Source: Terriglobia bacterium (GTDB taxonomy: Bacteria; Acidobacteriota; Terriglobia; UBA7540). From it: 6,409 nt of DNA. The DNA is taken from assembly GCA_030042795.1 (NCBI GenBank), contig JASHYZ010000563.1, positions 1 to 6,409 on the forward strand. Reading direction: 5' to 3'. The translations under genes were made by a program, and so were the position numbers. Of the stretch, positions 1,318 through 6,409 are shown in pieces; position 1 is the first letter of the stretch; each line of letters begins with the position of its first letter. The notes under the pieces were generated by a model, which worked only from the letters and a program-made list of their open reading frames with translations, was not told the origin of the DNA and did not search any database.

Positions 1318-2475
1318 ATGATTTCAATATGGTCGTTTCCCAACCGCATCATCTTTGGCGCTGGAGCTATCGGTCAGTTGGCAGAACGCGTGAAAGGCTT
1401 GGGAATCAGACGACCCTTGGTGGTGACCGATCCCGGAGTGGCAGCCAGCGGATTGCTCGAGCGCGTAACCGGTTCGCTAAAGGCTGCCGGTCTCAAGTAT
1501 TCGGTCTTCGATCGTGTCGAAGGCAATCCCACTGAAGCCAGTGTCTATCCAGGCGTGGAAATTTACGGAGGGCAACACTGCGACGGCGTCGTGGCCCTCG
1601 GCGGAGGCAGTGCAATTGATGCTGCCAAGGCCATCGGTCTGAAGGCAACTCACGATTTGCCGCTCGAAGACTACGATGACCTGAAAAACGGCGGGGATCT
1701 GATAAATTCGAATGTTCCGCCGATGGTCGCGATCCCCACCACGGCCGGCACCGGAAGCGAGGTGGGGCGCAGTACCGTAATCACCCTCAAGGCCACCGGC
1801 CGCAAGACGGTAATTTTCAGCCCGTACCTGCTGCCCAAAGTGGCCATCGCCGATCCCGAACTCACTTTCGGCCTGCCCCCTCATCTCACAGCCGCCACTG
1901 GCATGGACGCCATGACGCACAACCTGGAAGCCTATCTGGCGCTCGGCTACCACCCGATGTGCGACGCCATCGGGCTCAAGGGAGTGGAACTAGTCCATCG
2001 GAATCTGCCGCTCGCTGTCCGCGACGGAAGGAATCTGGAAGCGCGTACCGGCATGATGGCGGCGGCCATCATGGGAGCGGTGGCGTTTCAAAAGGGCCTG
2101 GGCACCGTTCACTCTCTTGCCCATCCGCTTTCGACCGTGGCCGGAATGCATCACGGCCTGACCAACGCCATCCTGCTGCCTCATGTGATGCGCTTTAATC
2201 TTCCTGTGGTTCGAGAGCGTCTTGTCGATCTCGCCGCCGTGATGGGCGTTGCCACTCACGGCATGACAGCAGATTCCGCAGCGCAAGCGGCAATCGGCGC
2301 CATCGAGAAGCTCAACGCCGACATCGGCATCCCACGGTGCTTGCGCGACGCCGGCGTGCGCGAAGAGATGATTCCCGTGATGGTGCCGCTCGCCATGGAA
2401 GACGGCTGCCGCCTGCTGAACCCGCGCCCTACTTCGCACGACGATATGGAGATGCTTTATCGGTTGGCTTTCTGA
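1318..2475 (+). CDS. Iron-containing alcohol dehydrogenase (group III, FucO-like)
   Basis: The 385-residue product has the normal length for NAD(P)-dependent, metal-activated group III alcohol dehydrogenases, which interconvert primary alcohols and aldehydes in the cytoplasm. The N-terminal Rossmann-like half opens with WSFPNRIIFGAGAI and carries VTDPG (36-40; D38 suggests NAD over NADP) and the dinucleotide motif GGGSAIDAAKAI (95-106). IPTTAGTGSE (139-148) follows. The C-terminal helical half has all metal ligands: D197 and H201 in MDAMTHNLEAY, H265 and H269 in HSLAHP, and H279 in MHHGLTNAILLPH. They are spaced as in E. coli FucO, so the enzyme should be active. The ATG at 1318 is chosen because MISIWSFPNRIIFG starts where the family starts; the ribosome-binding site is weak (ACAGG about 15 nt upstream). 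The TGA at 2473-2475 overlaps the first unit of a heptamer repeat array. A role in oxidising a gamma-glutamylated amino alcohol made by the GS-like enzyme is inference; the substrate cannot be read from the sequence. Confidence 0.95.
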   Translation: MISIWSFPNRIIFGAGAIGQLAERVKGLGIRRPLVVTDPGVAASGLLERVTGSLKAAGLKYSVFDRVEGNPTEASVYPGVEIYGGQHCDGVVALGGGSAIDAAKAIGLKATHDLPLEDYDDLKNGGDLINSNVPPMVAIPTTAGTGSEVGRSTVITLKATGRKTVIFSPYLLPKVAIADPELTFGLPPHLTAATGMDAMTHNLEAYLALGYHPMCDAIGLKGVELVHRNLPLAVRDGRNLEARTGMMAAAIMGAVAFQKGLGTVHSLAHPLSTVAGMHHGLTNAILLPHVMRFNLPVVRERLVDLAAVMGVATHGMTADSAAQAAIGAIEKLNADIGIPRCLRDAGVREEMIPVMVPLAMEDGCRLLNPRPTSHDDMEMLYRLAF

Positions 2476-2526
2476 GTTCGGAGTTGATCAGTTCGGAGTT
2501 CGGAGATTCTCAGTTCGAAGTTCCGA
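2474..2526 (+). repeat. Left heptamer repeat array (AGTTCGG units)
   Basis: Units of AGTTCGG with 7-bp periodicity: GAGTTCGGAG at 2474-2483, a doubled unit AGTTCGGAGTTCGGAG at 2490-2505, and a degenerate copy CAGTTCGAAGTTCCGAG at 2510-2526. The first unit overlaps the TGA of the alcohol dehydrogenase gene. The 20 bp at 2486-2505 are the reverse complement, with one mismatch, of 2999-3018 on the far side of the four helix bundle gene. Confidence 0.85.
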
Positions 2527-2553
2527 GCTTTACCCGGCGCAGAGTTGCCACGC

Positions 2554-2940
2554 ATGGCTACAATTAGAAGGTTCGAAGACATTCAGGCTTGGCAGAAGGC
2601 CCGAGAACTGGTGCGTGAAGTTTATCGGGTGTCTGTTGCGGGCAGGTTTCAACGAGATTACGGGCTGAGAGATCAGATTTGCAGGGCAGCAGTATCTTCC
2701 ATGAGCAACGTCGCTGAAGGCTTTGCGCGAAAAACGCGCCGTGACTTTGCTCACTTTCTGGACGTTGCCAGAAGGTCTGCAGTTGAGGTTCAGTCCCTGC
2801 TTTACGTCGCTGTTGACGTCGGCTATTTGAATACCGAACAGTTCAAAGCACTCTATGCCTTAGCAGACGAGGTAGCTGCGCTGGTTGGAGGATTCACGAG
2901 CTATCTTCGCAGGGCTCGCGCTCCGAACCGGTCTGAGTAA
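2554..2940 (+). CDS. Four helix bundle protein (23S rRNA intervening-sequence protein / S23 family)
   Basis: From the ATG at 2554 the product has 128 residues, the usual family length. Family landmarks are all present: IRRFEDIQAWQKARELVREVY at the start, then DYGLRDQICRAAVSSMSNVAEGFARKTRRDFAHFL in the middle, then VAVDVGYLNTEQFKALYALADEVAALVGGFTSYL. It is all-alpha with no signal peptide or membrane segment. Characterised relatives form pentameric bundles; the DGR accessory protein Avd is structurally related and basic, binding nucleic acid. No enzymatic activity is known. A TTG at 2545 could add three residues, but MATIRRFED is the typical beginning and AGAG lies at 2541-2544, 9 nt before the ATG. 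The gene ends 8 bp before the permease ATG and is flanked by inverted heptamer arrays, so it likely belongs to that cassette rather than the metabolic operon. Binding to the repeat RNA or DNA is speculation. Confidence 0.93.
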   Translation: MATIRRFEDIQAWQKARELVREVYRVSVAGRFQRDYGLRDQICRAAVSSMSNVAEGFARKTRRDFAHFLDVARRSAVEVQSLLYVAVDVGYLNTEQFKALYALADEVAALVGGFTSYLRRARAPNRSE

Positions 2941-2948
2941 GCCAGCCC

Positions 2949-4460
2949 ATGGACTCCAAACTGAGCAACTCCGAACTCCGTAACTCCGAACTGCTAAACT
3001 CCGAACTCCGAACTGACCAACTCCGAACTGACGAACACGACCTCGCCCGCCTCGGTTACGCGCAGGAACTCTTCCGCACCATGGGAGGGTTCTCGAATTT
3101 TGCCATTTCGTTTTCCATCATCTCTATTCTTACCGGCGCCGTCACTCTCTACGACTATGGTTTGGCCATGGGCGGGCCGGCAGAGATGTCGTTAGGGTGG
3201 CCGCTGGTGGCCCTATTTTCGCTCGCGGTGGCTGCCAGCATGGGTGAGATTGCCTCGGCGTTTCCCACCTCCGGTGGAATGTATCATTGGGCCACCATCC
3301 TGGGCAGTCCAGGTTGGGGATGGTTCACGGCGTGGTTCAACATCCTGGGCTTGATCGCCACCATCGCTGGCATCGATTACGGCTGCGCCCAGTTTCTCAT
3401 GCCCCTGCTACGCATTCCGCCGGGCACGGGCGCGCTGCTGGCAGTCTACGCGACGGTGCTCGCCTCGCACGGCCTCATCAATCACTACGGCATTCGGCTG
3501 GTCGCTTGGCTGAATGACGCGAGCGTCACGGTGCATATTGTCGGCGTCGCGGCCATCGTCGGAGCGCTGCTGCTCTTCGCTCCGAAGCAACCCGTCAGTT
3601 TCTTCTTTCATGCCGTCAATAGTAATGGCGTGCGTTTTTACGGATGGGCTTTTATGCTCGGCCTGCTGCAGGCCCAATGGACTTTCACCGGCTACGACGG
3701 CTCCTGTCACGTCTCGGAGGAAACCGTAGACCCACGCCGCCGCGTTCCGTGGGGCATGGTTACTGCTGTTGTGGTCTCCGCCGTCGTCGGATACCTTTTG
3801 CTGATGGCCTTGACGCTCTCCGTCCGCAGTCTTCCGGCAGCCCTCAATGCGACCGATGCAGCCGGAAACAAGGTGCCGGCGGTGATCGCCATTCTCGAGC
3901 AGTCGCTTGGCAACTCCGCGGGAGCCCTCGTCTCGCTCCTGGCTGTGATGGCGATGTGGTTCTGCGGCCTGGCCACCGTTACTTCCAACTCACGCACCGT
4001 TTACGCCTTCGCGCGCGACGGAGGACTGCCGTGGTCGCATCTTTGGAGAACCGTCAGCCCAAAACACCTTACTCCCGCTCACGCCATCTGGCTCTCGGTG
4101 GCCGCGGCCTTTGCCGTGGCCGTTTACAGCGGCGCTTACCCGGTAGTGACCTCGATCAGTACCATCGGGTTGTATATTTCCTATACTATTCCGGTGTATC
4201 TGGGATGGCGCGCGCGGCGCGCAGGCTTATGGCAGGAGCACGGGCCATGGCATCTCGGCCGCTACAGCGCCTTGGTGAACGCCGCTGCTCTGGCATGGAC
4301 TGCCTTCATTTGCCTTATGCTGGTGATGCCGCCCAACCAACTCGCCGGCAAGACGATTCTTGGTGCCACACTGGCGCTCGCCTTGGCGTATGCGATCAGT
4401 GAGCGGCGTCGCTTCCATGCAAGTGCTCGCGTGCAATCTCAGCTCGTCAACCGTGGTTAA
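2949..4460 (+). CDS. APC-superfamily amino acid/amine permease with a repeat-encoded N-terminus
   Basis: The 503-residue product is an integral inner-membrane transporter, probably importing an amino acid, choline or amine with protons. About 12 hydrophobic segments are visible, roughly at 47-67, 85-105, 126-150, 160-175, 190-210, 230-250, 270-291, 325-345, 378-396, 400-418, 440-460 and 466-483. Family motifs: ARLGYAQELFRTMGGFSNFA (33-52), SMGEIASAFPTSGGMYHWA (97-115), FTGYDGSCHVSEET (246-259) and SNSRTVYAFARDGGLP (346-361). These resemble the amino acid/choline (UGA4/HNM1-like) branch. The ATG at 2949 is the only in-frame ATG before 3081, and an in-frame TGA lies at 2934-2936. Residues 2-28 are encoded by the right heptamer array and read as low-complexity NSEL/RTD repeats; recognisable family sequence begins near residue 29. 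No good Shine-Dalgarno is seen, so coupling to the IVP gene 8 bp upstream is plausible. Three consecutive in-frame stops (TAA TGA TAA) close it. Substrate is unproven; the adjacent GS-like gene suggests an amine. Confidence 0.93.
   Translation: MDSKLSNSELRNSELLNSELRTDQLRTDEHDLARLGYAQELFRTMGGFSNFAISFSIISILTGAVTLYDYGLAMGGPAEMSLGWPLVALFSLAVAASMGEIASAFPTSGGMYHWATILGSPGWGWFTAWFNILGLIATIAGIDYGCAQFLMPLLRIPPGTGALLAVYATVLASHGLINHYGIRLVAWLNDASVTVHIVGVAAIVGALLLFAPKQPVSFFFHAVNSNGVRFYGWAFMLGLLQAQWTFTGYDGSCHVSEETVDPRRRVPWGMVTAVVVSAVVGYLLLMALTLSVRSLPAALNATDAAGNKVPAVIAILEQSLGNSAGALVSLLAVMAMWFCGLATVTSNSRTVYAFARDGGLPWSHLWRTVSPKHLTPAHAIWLSVAAAFAVAVYSGAYPVVTSISTIGLYISYTIPVYLGWRARRAGLWQEHGPWHLGRYSALVNAAALAWTAFICLMLVMPPNQLAGKTILGATLALALAYAISERRRFHASARVQSQLVNRG
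2953..3031 (+). repeat. Right heptamer repeat array (AACTCCG units, inverse of the left array)
   Basis: AACTCCG units repeat with 7-bp periodicity and short interruptions: a degenerate ACTCCAAACTGA (2953-2964), AACTCCGAACTCCG (2967-2980), AACTCCGAACTG (2982-2993), a triple unit (2997-3016) and AACTCCGAACTGA (3019-3031). A stray CTCCGAAC also sits at 2921-2928, in the last codons of the IVP gene. The array is larger than the left one and its word is the exact reverse complement. It is translated in the permease frame as repeats of NSEL(R). Confidence 0.85.
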
Positions 4461-4492: not shown

Positions 4493-4798
4493 TCAGTCGG
4501 CTGGTAGCTCTTGGGGAGCGTACTGGCGGCGGACCTTGATTTTGTCCTCGTCCTTGCGGGCCTGTGCGAGGTCGTAGGAAACCTGCATGCGCAGCCACGT
4601 TTCGGGTGTGCTGCCAAATGCTTTCGCAAGCCGGATAGCCATTTCGGGGCTGACACCCGACTTGCCGTTGATGACGTTGTTGAGTGTTTGTCGGGTGACA
4701 CCGAGGACCTTCGCGCCTTCGGTGACTGACAACCCCAAAGGCTCAAGGCATCCGTTCCGGATACTGCGGCCGGGGTGTGGCGGGTTTTTCATTGGCAT
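4493..4798 (-). CDS. higA: HigA-type antitoxin, XRE-family HTH protein
   Basis: The 101-residue product carries an XRE/Cro-type helix-turn-helix at about residues 24-62: SVTEGAKVLGVTRQTLNNV followed by INGKSGVSPEMAIRLAKAFG. The tail STPETWLRMQVSYDLAQAR is typical of the HigA/VapA antitoxin family. HigA binds and neutralises the HigB ribonuclease and, through its HTH, represses its own promoter. The start is the ATG at 4796-4798, preceded 8 nt upstream by a strong GAGGAG; a second ATG two codons in (4790-4792) is possible, with poorer spacing. The gene lies 19 bp downstream of higB on the same strand, in the toxin-first order characteristic of higBA. The residues after ~85 are charged and appear disordered. 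Confidence 0.94.
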   Translation of the reverse strand: MPMKNPPHPGRSIRNGCLEPLGLSVTEGAKVLGVTRQTLNNVINGKSGVSPEMAIRLAKAFGSTPETWLRMQVSYDLAQARKDEDKIKVRRQYAPQELPAD

Positions 4799-4806
4799 GA
4801 CGTCTG

Positions 4807-4812
4807 CTCCTC
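4807..4812 (-). promoter_or_regulatory. Strong Shine-Dalgarno of higA
   Basis: On the minus strand GAGGAG lies 8 nt upstream of the higA ATG. It contrasts with higB, which has a GTG start and no visible Shine-Dalgarno. This asymmetry would favour antitoxin over toxin synthesis from one mRNA. Confidence 0.75.
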
Positions 4813-4817
4813 AATTG

Positions 4818-5096
4818 CTAGTGGTAGTCGATCAGTTCAACATCGAACACGTCCGGGCCTTCGAAGCGGAAGATGATACGCCAGTTCGCCCGTACCGTTA
4901 CGGACCAGAAGCCTCTAAGGTCGCCTTTCAGGCGGTGAAGGCGATAGCCGGGAAGGTTAAGGCCCAGCGGCGTATCGGCCGCGTCCAGACGGCCAAGAAT
5001 ATCCTCAACATTGTTCAAGGGATCAGGTCTTATACCGCGGCGGTCGTCATGTTCGTAGAGCCTTTTGAGACCGCGATGCTTGAAGCTTCGGATCAC
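4818..5096 (-). CDS. higB: HigB-type toxin, RelE-fold ribosome-dependent mRNA interferase
   Basis: The 92-residue product matches the HigB branch of the RelE/ParE superfamily across its whole length. Landmarks are MIRSFKHRGLKRLYE at the N-terminus, DDRRGIRPD (17-25), LPGYRLHRLKG (48-58), FWSVTVRANWRIIFRFEG (63-80) and the terminal DVELIDYH. H54 and the D90-Y91-H92 end coincide in number and context with residues reported as functionally important in Proteus vulgaris HigB, so the toxin appears intact. Such toxins cleave mRNA in the ribosomal A site and are held inactive by HigA. The start is a GTG at 5096, the only candidate that gives the family N-terminus. No Shine-Dalgarno precedes it, and a good promoter ends so close to the GTG that the mRNA may be leaderless. 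The gene is first in the minus-strand higBA operon and divergent from the Uma2 gene. Confidence 0.95.
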   Translation of the reverse strand: MIRSFKHRGLKRLYEHDDRRGIRPDPLNNVEDILGRLDAADTPLGLNLPGYRLHRLKGDLRGFWSVTVRANWRIIFRFEGPDVFDVELIDYH

Positions 5097-5235: not shown

Positions 5236-5871
5236 ATGCCGACCGTTACAAGCCAGCCGGAGCAGAGAGTGGTATTGCGCAGCGTAAGCTGGGAAACGTA
5301 TGAGCGCCTACTGGCGGAAAACTCTGATCGGAGTTCGCCACGCCTCACCTACGATCGCGGAATCCTTGAGATTATGAGCCCGTCAGCCGAGCACGAATGG
5401 TACAAAGAGCTGATTTCCGACCTGGTGAAACTGCTGGCCAGAGAACTCCGCATCGACGTCCTTTCCTTAGGGTCCACAACGTTCCGGCGTGAGCAGACGG
5501 AGCGAGGGTTCGAGCCGGACGCGTGCTTTTACTTTACTCATGTCAGGCAACTGAGAGGCAAGGAGCAGATTGATCTCTCAATAGATCCTCCACCGGACAT
5601 TGTTGTAGAAGTTGCTGTGACGCGTTCTTCGCTGAGCAAGTTTCCAGTCTGTGCGGCGCTAGGCGTGCCCGAGATCTGGAGTTACGACGGCAGCCGGTTG
5701 CGAATTTATCGATTGGACAAGTCCGACTACATCGAAGCGTCGTCAAGTGGTGTTCTGCTTCAACTCGGAGCCCAACAGATCACCGATTGGCTGGAGTTGG
5801 CAAAGGCCCTGGACAGTGTCACGTGGCCCGATGAAGTCCTCCAGCAGTTCCGGCGTTCACAGGCGCTCTGA
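5236..5871 (+). CDS. Uma2 family (DUF820) restriction-endonuclease-fold protein
   Basis: The 211-residue product shows the Uma2/DUF820 pattern. An N-terminal SWETYERLLAE helix leads to LTYDRGILEIMSPSAEHEW (38-55). Then come GFEPDACFYF (91-100, acidic D95), PPDIVVEVAVTRSSLSKFP (119-137, D121 and E125, K135) and ALGVPEIWSYDGSRLRIYRL (141-160). The family has a PD-(D/E)XK nuclease-like core, is abundant in cyanobacteria and other environmental bacteria, and mostly has no known function. Many relatives read EVDIT where this protein has EVAVT, so A127 replaces a commonly acidic residue; whether this affects catalysis is unclear. The ATG at 5236 is supported by AGGTG (5223-5227) 8 nt upstream. A -10-like CATAAT lies at 5180-5185, without a convincing -35. 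The gene is divergent from higBA and ends 1 bp before the DUF1697 start, so the two are probably co-translated. Confidence 0.9.
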   Translation: MPTVTSQPEQRVVLRSVSWETYERLLAENSDRSSPRLTYDRGILEIMSPSAEHEWYKELISDLVKLLARELRIDVLSLGSTTFRREQTERGFEPDACFYFTHVRQLRGKEQIDLSIDPPPDIVVEVAVTRSSLSKFPVCAALGVPEIWSYDGSRLRIYRLDKSDYIEASSSGVLLQLGAQQITDWLELAKALDSVTWPDEVLQQFRRSQAL

Positions 5872-5872
5872 T

Positions 5873-6409
5873 ATGCCCGTGGTGATCTCTTTGCTCCGCG
5901 GCGTCAACGTCGGGGGTCACAACAAGGTCAAGATGGAGGCGCTCCGAGCGTTGTATGAATCTCTCGGGCTGCGGGACGTTCAGACGTACGTTCAGAGCGG
6001 CAATCTCGTTTTCAAAACCAAAGAGCGCGACTTGGTGCGGCTATCAAGACTTATCGAGGGCGCGATCGAGAAGAAGTTTGGGTTTCATACGGATGTTATC
6101 CTCCGCACGACTGCTGAGCTGCGAGATGTCATCACCAGAAACCCGTTTGCGCAGCGAGGCGGCATCGATCCTAGCAGATTGCTCATCACCTTTCTCGCCG
6201 CTGAGTCCGGCGCCGAAGCTCGGGAGAAAGTTTCCAAGCTCGACACCCAGCCGGACGAACTGTACGTTGACGGCCGCGAGGTCTACATCTATTTTGTGGG
6301 TGGCATGGCGCGTCCCAAGACATCGTGGATGGCCATTGCAAAGATGCTGAAGACGCCGGGAACAGGCAGAAACTGGAATACCGTCACGAAATTGCTGGAG
6401 ATTGCGGAG
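5873..6409 (+). CDS. DUF1697 family protein, 3' end cut by the window
   Basis: The frame runs from the ATG at 5873 to the window edge, giving 179 residues with no stop. Landmarks are VVISLLRGVNVGGHNKVKM (3-21), LGLRDVQTYVQSGNLVF (31-47), a middle portion with VILRTTAELRDVITRNPF (75-92), LYVDGREVYIYF (130-141) and the near-terminal RNWNTVTKLLEIA (166-178). These are typical of DUF1697, a conserved cytoplasmic family of about 180 residues with no established biochemical role. Since RNWNTVTKL is the usual ending, only a few residues are probably missing. The start follows the Uma2 TGA by one base (TGATATG) with no clear Shine-Dalgarno, suggesting reinitiation by ribosomes leaving the Uma2 gene. 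A GTG at 5879 is a less likely alternative. A stop-bounded + strand frame inside it (5955-6350) is a shadow. Confidence 0.93.
   Translation, partial: MPVVISLLRGVNVGGHNKVKMEALRALYESLGLRDVQTYVQSGNLVFKTKERDLVRLSRLIEGAIEKKFGFHTDVILRTTAELRDVITRNPFAQRGGIDPSRLLITFLAAESGAEAREKVSKLDTQPDELYVDGREVYIYFVGGMARPKTSWMAIAKMLKTPGTGRNWNTVTKLLEIAE

Follow-up and report, generated by a model that had tools for sequence, protein, structure and literature searches.

The intervening-sequence protein (IVP) gene in a 6,409-nucleotide (nt) stretch of DNA from a Terriglobia bacterium (assembly GCA_030042795.1, contig JASHYZ010000563.1; the whole stretch is called the window here) is enclosed by two arrays of a short tandem unit that stand in inverted orientation. 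This layout of gene and arrays is found in many phyla, together with array copies that hold no gene, which points to an unrecognised DNA element that spreads. We give a probability of roughly 60% to the cassette being a minimal mobile (proliferating) element, with the IVP as the unit-specific partner of its arrays. Such an element would comprise the IVP gene and two inverted arrays of a 7-9 bp unit specific to the cassette lineage, and gene-less foldback arrays would be its non-autonomous form, dependent on the IVP. We know of no assigned role for free-standing IVP ('four helix bundle') genes, which are common: in one order, 37 of 40 genomes have them, with 286 matches in all. Genomes and loci are cited by our own handles (G and L numbers).

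The cassette of the window lies between two protein-coding genes, and not in a 23S rRNA gene, in the following arrangement:

1318..2475, + strand: iron-containing alcohol dehydrogenase, upstream co-directional gene (profile and relatives)
2475..2526, + strand: left array of AGTTCGG-type units, 7 bp, plus 8-bp variants such as AGTTGATC
2554..2940, + strand: IVP gene, four helix bundle protein of 128 amino acids (PF05635 / TIGR02436)
2953..3031, + strand: right array, its units (CCGAACT in rotation) the complement of those on the left
2949..4460, + strand: amino acid permease open reading frame (ORF), downstream co-directional gene (profile and relatives)

The IVP ORF belongs to the family by both profiles, scoring 113.4 bits against PF05635 (curated cut-off 33.8; 7.4e-33) and 103.8 bits against TIGR02436 (cut-off 24). 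The first base of the left array is the last base of the stop codon of the upstream gene, and the right array, read in frame, makes up ~27 codons at the 5' end of the permease ORF (start 2949), homology of the permease to its relatives beginning at ORF residue 19 (L155) or 28 (L160). A reading made from the sequence alone had described AGTTCGG units to the left of the gene and AACTCCG to the right, the latter being the reverse complement of the former once rotation is allowed. Both arrays are present: the best inverted pair (2462-2525 / 2979-3042) extends over 64 nt at 81% complementarity, and the inverted-alignment score of 72 lies beyond all controls, which comprised 11,248 positions at equal spacing within the same set of loci (99th percentile 25, maximum 50). 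The 20-bp pairing of 2486-2505 with 2999-3018 pointed out in the same reading is likewise complementary, with one mismatch, and in an RNA fold of 2474-3031, 47 of the initial 60 nt pair with the final 90 nt. An Rfam scan of the window gave no match. Given this score and the pairing in the RNA fold, the repeat-gene-repeat arrangement of the window is real and well past chance.

The proposal that repeat, gene and repeat form a conserved cassette is strongly supported across the family, and the contrary expectation, that IVP genes elsewhere lack flanking repeats, fails. The best 80 of 203 IVP relatives from genome contigs span many phyla. The flank before the gene was compared with the flank after it, the latter read on the opposite strand; the match between arms exceeded the 99th percentile of controls at 61 of 80 loci, the window included (81 loci were drawn on, one without enough flank), against 11 of 80 in direct orientation and 48 of 948 when flanks from different loci were combined. 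In a wider survey, 214 raw matches yielded 172 non-redundant cassettes, or 162 after exclusion of the G168 group (10); of these, 117 have an inverted array pair scoring over the 99th percentile of same-locus controls and 15 pass in direct orientation. This survey differs slightly from the first: its scoring gives 55 of 81 for the first 81 entries, a figure lower than 61 of 80 because flanks were cut at other points. By tandem repeat finding, for which 112 of 130 entries (81 plus 49) were kept, the period was identical in both arms in 69 of the 112 cassettes (58 with 7/7, 4 with 8/8 and 7 with 9/9). Arrays on both flanks were also seen by eye at 20 more IVP loci (G041, G025, G026) and at six plasmid loci.

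Orthologous gaps exist in filled, gene-less and empty states. The sequence-only reading had asked for an empty site at the alcohol dehydrogenase-permease locus, and one was found in G026 (L155), where the two genes adjoin without a cassette and conserved permease sequence begins ~35 nt past the dehydrogenase stop; the junction of G025 (L160) resembles it. At the same junction G041 carries gene-less inverted arrays of a different unit (CGTTGTC), with a foldback array in a neighbouring ~80-nt gap. The gap between the genes for pyruvate dehydrogenase E1 beta and the E2 acyltransferase was surveyed in the 40 genomes, E1 beta being found in 24 and E2 located at 22 of these 24 loci. Five genomes have an IVP cassette there, with AGTGGCA as its word in G002, G026, G001 and G025 and CGAGAGT, with another IVP lineage, in G031. 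Gene-less inverted arrays occupy the gap in G029, G028 and G030 (by repeat finding) and in G041 and G020 (by eye); it measures only 18-44 nt in five genomes and is longer, with no clear state, in seven others. Inside a gene, a gene-less AGTTCGG foldback sits in frame within a single loop of the G002 tgt (TIGR00430); that loop holds a repeat-coded insert, of different look in translation, in many though not all of 14 other tgt orthologues.

Two side observations concern these loci. The alcohol dehydrogenase-permease gap of G001 (L123 330-1040) contains an apparent remnant of a second IVP (3' end and right array) before the present IVP, and the latter aligns to the window protein in two pieces. 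Among tgt genes of one order (L129 254-1495; L259-L273), the unit of the in-frame repeat-coded loop inserts apparently differs between genomes.

AGTTCGG does not hold up as the general repeat word, the word being mostly cassette-specific. Units are 7, 8 or 9 bp long, and the word usually changes from copy to copy even inside one genome: the copies examined in G001 (17), G002 (16) and G005 (16) mostly have distinct words, e.g. AGTTGAC, AGTGGCA, AGGTGCC, GATTGCC and AAGGATG. An AGTGGCG type is common to four G005 copies (L141, L143, L149, L151); these cassettes have similar downstream genes by eye and were probably duplicated along with their flanks. Orthologous cassettes retain their word, as does AGTTCGG at the alcohol dehydrogenase-permease gap of the window, G002 and G001.

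Word and protein also travel together between unrelated sites. Among cassette pairs with non-homologous flanks, the array word is common to 9 of 11 pairs (four families) at 75-90% IVP identity, to 18% of 335 pairs at 60-75% and to 1-4% below 60%; in the 90-100% class, which is the G168-type family, 12 of 15 pairs share it. In the clearest case, the word GAGTGCT/AGCACTC is present at two loci of a Deltaproteobacteria metagenome-assembled genome (L049, L109), which may be misbinned, and at loci of two Cyanobacteria (L189, L199); their IVPs are 73-80% identical, and outside gene and arrays there is no nucleotide match within 700 nt. The same element at non-homologous sites, with empty orthologous sites, as expected of a mobile element, is seen at 75-90% protein identity and not at strain level.

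IVP copies of G168 (L202-L212, L216) form a case of their own. About 12 copies, mostly 96-99% identical, lie in an element resembling a miniature inverted-repeat transposable element (MITE), whose inverted terminal repeats are TAACTGACGTTACGCA...TGCGTAACATCAGTTA. An apparent second nested element interrupts most of the copies after 87 profile positions, and the IVP of G194 (L174) is 92-95% identical to these copies. We rejected G168 as proof of IVP self-mobility because its copies sit inside a terminal-inverted-repeat element. It does lend weight to the explanation that arrays and IVP are passengers of other machinery, either an insertion sequence with terminal inverted repeats or a hairpin-acting Y1 (HUH) transposase of the kind that acts on repetitive extragenic palindromic (REP) sequences, and Y1 transposases are present in 35 of the 40 genomes of the order. 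Ordinary cassettes, however, show no such termini by eye, and IVP density in the 40 genomes is not significantly correlated with Y1 density (rho 0.22, p 0.17) and does not track that of reverse transcriptases (rho 0.11, p 0.49); eight genomes with at least nine IVP matches have no match to RVT_1. We regard this explanation as quite improbable.

No transposase gene was found in the element of the window, the sole long sense ORF between the arrays being the PF05635 gene (short antisense ORFs were unscanned), and neither a Y1 transposase nor a reverse transcriptase was found among eight scanned window ORFs, template and variable repeats not having been searched for. A Y1/HUH link was set aside for want of a significant density correlation, and a reverse-transcriptase link was rejected as a general rule on the eight IVP-rich genomes and the rho of 0.11. 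A phage vehicle was rejected as well: the window protein has no relative in phages, and patterns for its close relatives found none in viral contigs. Elsewhere in the window lie a HigBA-type toxin-antitoxin pair (4493-5096, minus strand), a Uma2 family gene (5236-5871) and then a DUF1697 gene (5873-6409). An Asn and a Glu are conserved in all of 148 diverse IVPs, and a Gln (147), a Ser (146), a Glu (142) and an Arg (136) in nearly all; by sequence, 2gsc (XCC0516 of Xanthomonas campestris) and 2rld are the closest structures solved.

Sixteen gene-less inverted pairs of G001, G002 and G005, at a distance of over 260 nt from the nearest IVP and drawn from loci fetched for other purposes, many of them around IVPs, shared on average 10.8 words with own-genome IVP arrays against 6.3 with the others (permutation p 0.0008). 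Fifteen of the 16 had more words in common with own-genome IVP arrays than the average over the other two genomes, 12 of them more than with either one. For single words, the exact two-unit AGTGGCA pattern AGTGGCAAGTGGCAA gave 39 matches in G025, 16 in G002, 12 in G026 and 10 in G001, the four of 40 genomes in which the AGTGGCA IVP cassette was found, and five in the remaining 36 (reversed control 0), counts that include overlaps and the cassette's own arrays; the association of at least 10 matches with the cassette has a Fisher p of 1e-5, at a cut chosen afterwards. G002 and G026 have one gene-less AGTGGCA site in common by flank similarity besides the cassette, in a comparison that covered every pattern match of these two genomes and some from G025 and G001. 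The AGTTCGG pattern matched 13 times in G002, 7 in G041, 3 in G025 and once each in G001, G014 and G026. In another phylum, a word of the arrays that flank IVPs in G057 and G091 gave 629 and 350 overlapping matches in these two genomes, 356 in G240, 44 in G174, 24 in G111, 16 in G150 and 1-8 in twelve more, with zero in 176 of 194 genomes (reversed control 1).

Array density differed in one order of Acidobacteria, where regions from genomes with at least 7 IVPs held 6 gene-less pairs in 0.187 Mb against 0 in 0.200 Mb from genomes with at most 3 (p 0.013); these pairs are inverted, with no direct pairs, and a comparison in E. coli gave 0 in 0.1 Mb. Loci fetched for other questions differed likewise, with 13 pairs in 121 kb against 1 in 72 kb (rho 0.40, p 0.03), but they had been picked because G002 had arrays there. 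The sequence-only reading had considered that the heptamers might be scattered with no link to IVP genes. Arrays without an IVP inside do occur, as that alternative has it; their words nevertheless tend to agree with those of IVPs in the genome that carries them, and AGTGGCA is concentrated where its IVP was found, exceptions existing in G041, G111 and G240. Those exceptions apart, gene-less arrays co-occur with an IVP of matching unit.

The same data bear on local replication slippage, which could build arrays at hairpin-prone spots where IVP genes merely lie, functionally unlinked. Slippage fits the differing order of units between arms and the different look of the tgt loop inserts between relatives. 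It does not fit the matching of units between arms, the units that IVP arrays share with gene-less arrays within a genome and those that related IVPs share at unrelated sites, or the finding of six inverted gene-less pairs with no direct pairs alongside. Unit-protein co-travel and same-genome word matching already disfavour this explanation, and we consider it very improbable.

Orientation raises a different alternative. With neighbours taken as the longest non-overlapping ORFs, 75 of 81 loci were usable and 72 had both gaps of at most 400 nt; the IVP is sense to both neighbours at 54 of these 72, antisense to both at 2 and mixed at 16. In the IVP-rich genomes G001, G002 and G005 (43 copies, 40 retained), the figures are 27, 1 and 12. 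Randomly oriented insertion between co-directional genes would predict equal sense and antisense counts. A stationary regulatory module could account for the bias, the IVP binding arrays in its own transcript and setting operon expression or guiding RNase III processing, with gene-less arrays as extra regulator targets spread by drift, slippage and conversion. The sense placement of the IVP inside operon-like gaps and the occurrence of same-unit arrays elsewhere in the genome agree with it, as does the proposal that TAACTGA repeats are regulatory (MacGregor, 2015; PMC4679880). Against it, neighbour genes change between copies, including alcohol dehydrogenase/permease, pyruvate dehydrogenase E1 beta/E2 acyltransferase and, by eye, ABC-type permeases; empty sites exist; G002 and G026 have a single gene-less site in common; and copies within a genome mostly have different units. 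We judge a regulatory module rather unlikely. As a further instance of neighbours, the Anabaena sp. 90 plasmid pANA02 (L398 2495-2863) carries an IVP and arrays between cas6 and cas4 of a type I-D CRISPR-Cas operon.

A mobile element with a unit-specific protein partner remains the reading we prefer. Architecture, sense orientation, the empty, gene-less and full states of one gap and unit-protein co-travel are established by comparison. On mobility, suggested by the sequence-only reading, empty sites and the same element at non-homologous sites lend comparative support. The unit of its own cassette is most likely what an IVP recognises, in the array hairpin, as RNA or single-stranded DNA, and the protein may support the copying or insertion of whatever that unit borders, gene-less foldback arrays included; unit recognition, a part for the IVP in movement, the kind of nucleic acid and the source of a cutting or polymerising enzyme are all inferred. 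The transcript would form a hairpin whose loop contains the IVP gene, as in intervening sequences (IVSs) of 23S rRNA, and insertions would be retained chiefly in tight co-directional gaps, in sense.

Several observations weigh against a mobile, word-specific element. No inverted match above the cut was found in 45 of 162 cassettes, and two of 16 later cyanobacterial IVP loci (L467, L469) have arrays in direct orientation by eye. Mirrored unit order between arms reached p<=0.05 in 9 of 88 cassettes and in 0 of 41 with clean arrays (G168 loci excluded), on which grounds a fixed mirrored stem was rejected as the family rule; the window arms both show the unit order 7-8-7-7-8-7 by eye, and this is not a family rule, since mirrored order is so rare. 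The long stem with the ORF in its loop, as first described, stands for the window; for the family, a single fixed stem finds no support. The four-of-four agreement for AGTGGCA does not amount to four independent events, because the four genomes are from one order. G041 has seven AGTTCGG matches and the exact word in 0 of the 7 IVPs seen (of 9), one of its cassettes having GGGTTCG, a single letter away. G111 holds 24 matches of the G057/G091 word and no PF05635 match; the word is absent from 4 IVPs viewed of 9 in G240, despite 356 matches, as well as from the one IVP of G174 and four viewed in G150. Arrays can, on the strength of these four genomes, occur without a visible partner IVP. Random cyanobacterial regions showed no array enrichment, those with IVP holding 4 pairs in 180 kb and those without 2 in 118 kb. 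Neither a target-site duplication nor an exact insertion point was resolved, the relatives compared being only ~80% identical, so that insertion junctions are not placed to the base. In G168 an ordinary terminal-inverted-repeat transposon spreads the IVP copies, and the IVP has no known catalytic domain.

Should mobility prove true, the element would spread although it encodes no transposase, recombinase or reverse transcriptase. Heptamer arrays and IVP genes have been described separately, and linking them gives both a testable function, the candidate being partnership between a protein and its repeat word; controls are built in, as one genome holds up to ~20 protein/word pairs. A 2008 paper reportedly dealt with small mobile repeats in cyanobacteria. 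In the open literature, as far as the accessible text goes, no paper was found that links IVP genes with inverted short-unit arrays.

Among the closest known systems are the 23S rRNA IVSs, whose S23/IVP ORF is of the same family and lies in the loop between base-paired ends; the window cassette, too, has complementary ends enclosing the ORF. IVS RNAs are excised by RNase III, and the Coxiella IVS has tandem GACAGAT heptamers, two or three by strain, upstream of the S23 ORF (PMC4990558). The cassettes described here differ in lying between protein-coding genes and not in rRNA, in ends that are tandem arrays of a mostly copy-specific unit, and in their many copies per genome and gene-less forms.

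REPs flank the TnpA-REP (RAYT) gene, and this system resembles ours in linking a protein gene to palindromic repeats that have many gene-less copies. Such REP sequences and REPINs may be non-autonomous elements (PMC8266576). The IVP is not a Y1/HUH transposase, however, the repeats here are arrays of a 7-9 bp unit, and no Y1 correlation was seen. MITEs and insertion sequences have inverted ends and an autonomous/non-autonomous logic in common with the cassettes, and the G168 family is itself a MITE-like IVP carrier; elsewhere no transposase gene was found, there is no fixed terminal repeat and no target duplication was resolved. Avd, a homologous protein of like fold, is accessory to, and essential for, retrohoming in diversity-generating retroelements (PMC10053308), from which the cassettes differ in that the scanned window ORFs and the eight IVP-rich genomes show no reverse transcriptase.

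The heptamers of Xanthomonas (GGGAATC), Nostoc (GGGGATT) and Beggiatoaceae (TAACTGA) likewise form arrays of a 7-bp unit, and these often lie between ORFs that are aligned. They are interpreted as G-quadruplexes or regulators, with no link made to IVPs in the text consulted; two Xanthomonas genomes have 70 and 75 convergent (inverted) pairs, inverted pairs in Nostoc are reported to be few (PMC4692102), and for TAACTGA a mobile repeat-binding protein was raised as an idea (MacGregor, 2015; PMC4679880). Tentatively, and at somewhat less than even odds, IVP genes may constitute an unrecognised mobile class of many phyla, in which a four-helix-bundle protein without a known enzyme domain would read a short tandem word, this lineage-specific word would stand as inverted arrays on both sides of the gene and also at many gene-less sites, and the IVP would bring about word-specific spread, with the 23S rRNA IVS as its rRNA branch and the cyanobacterial and xanthomonad heptamers as its gene-less members.

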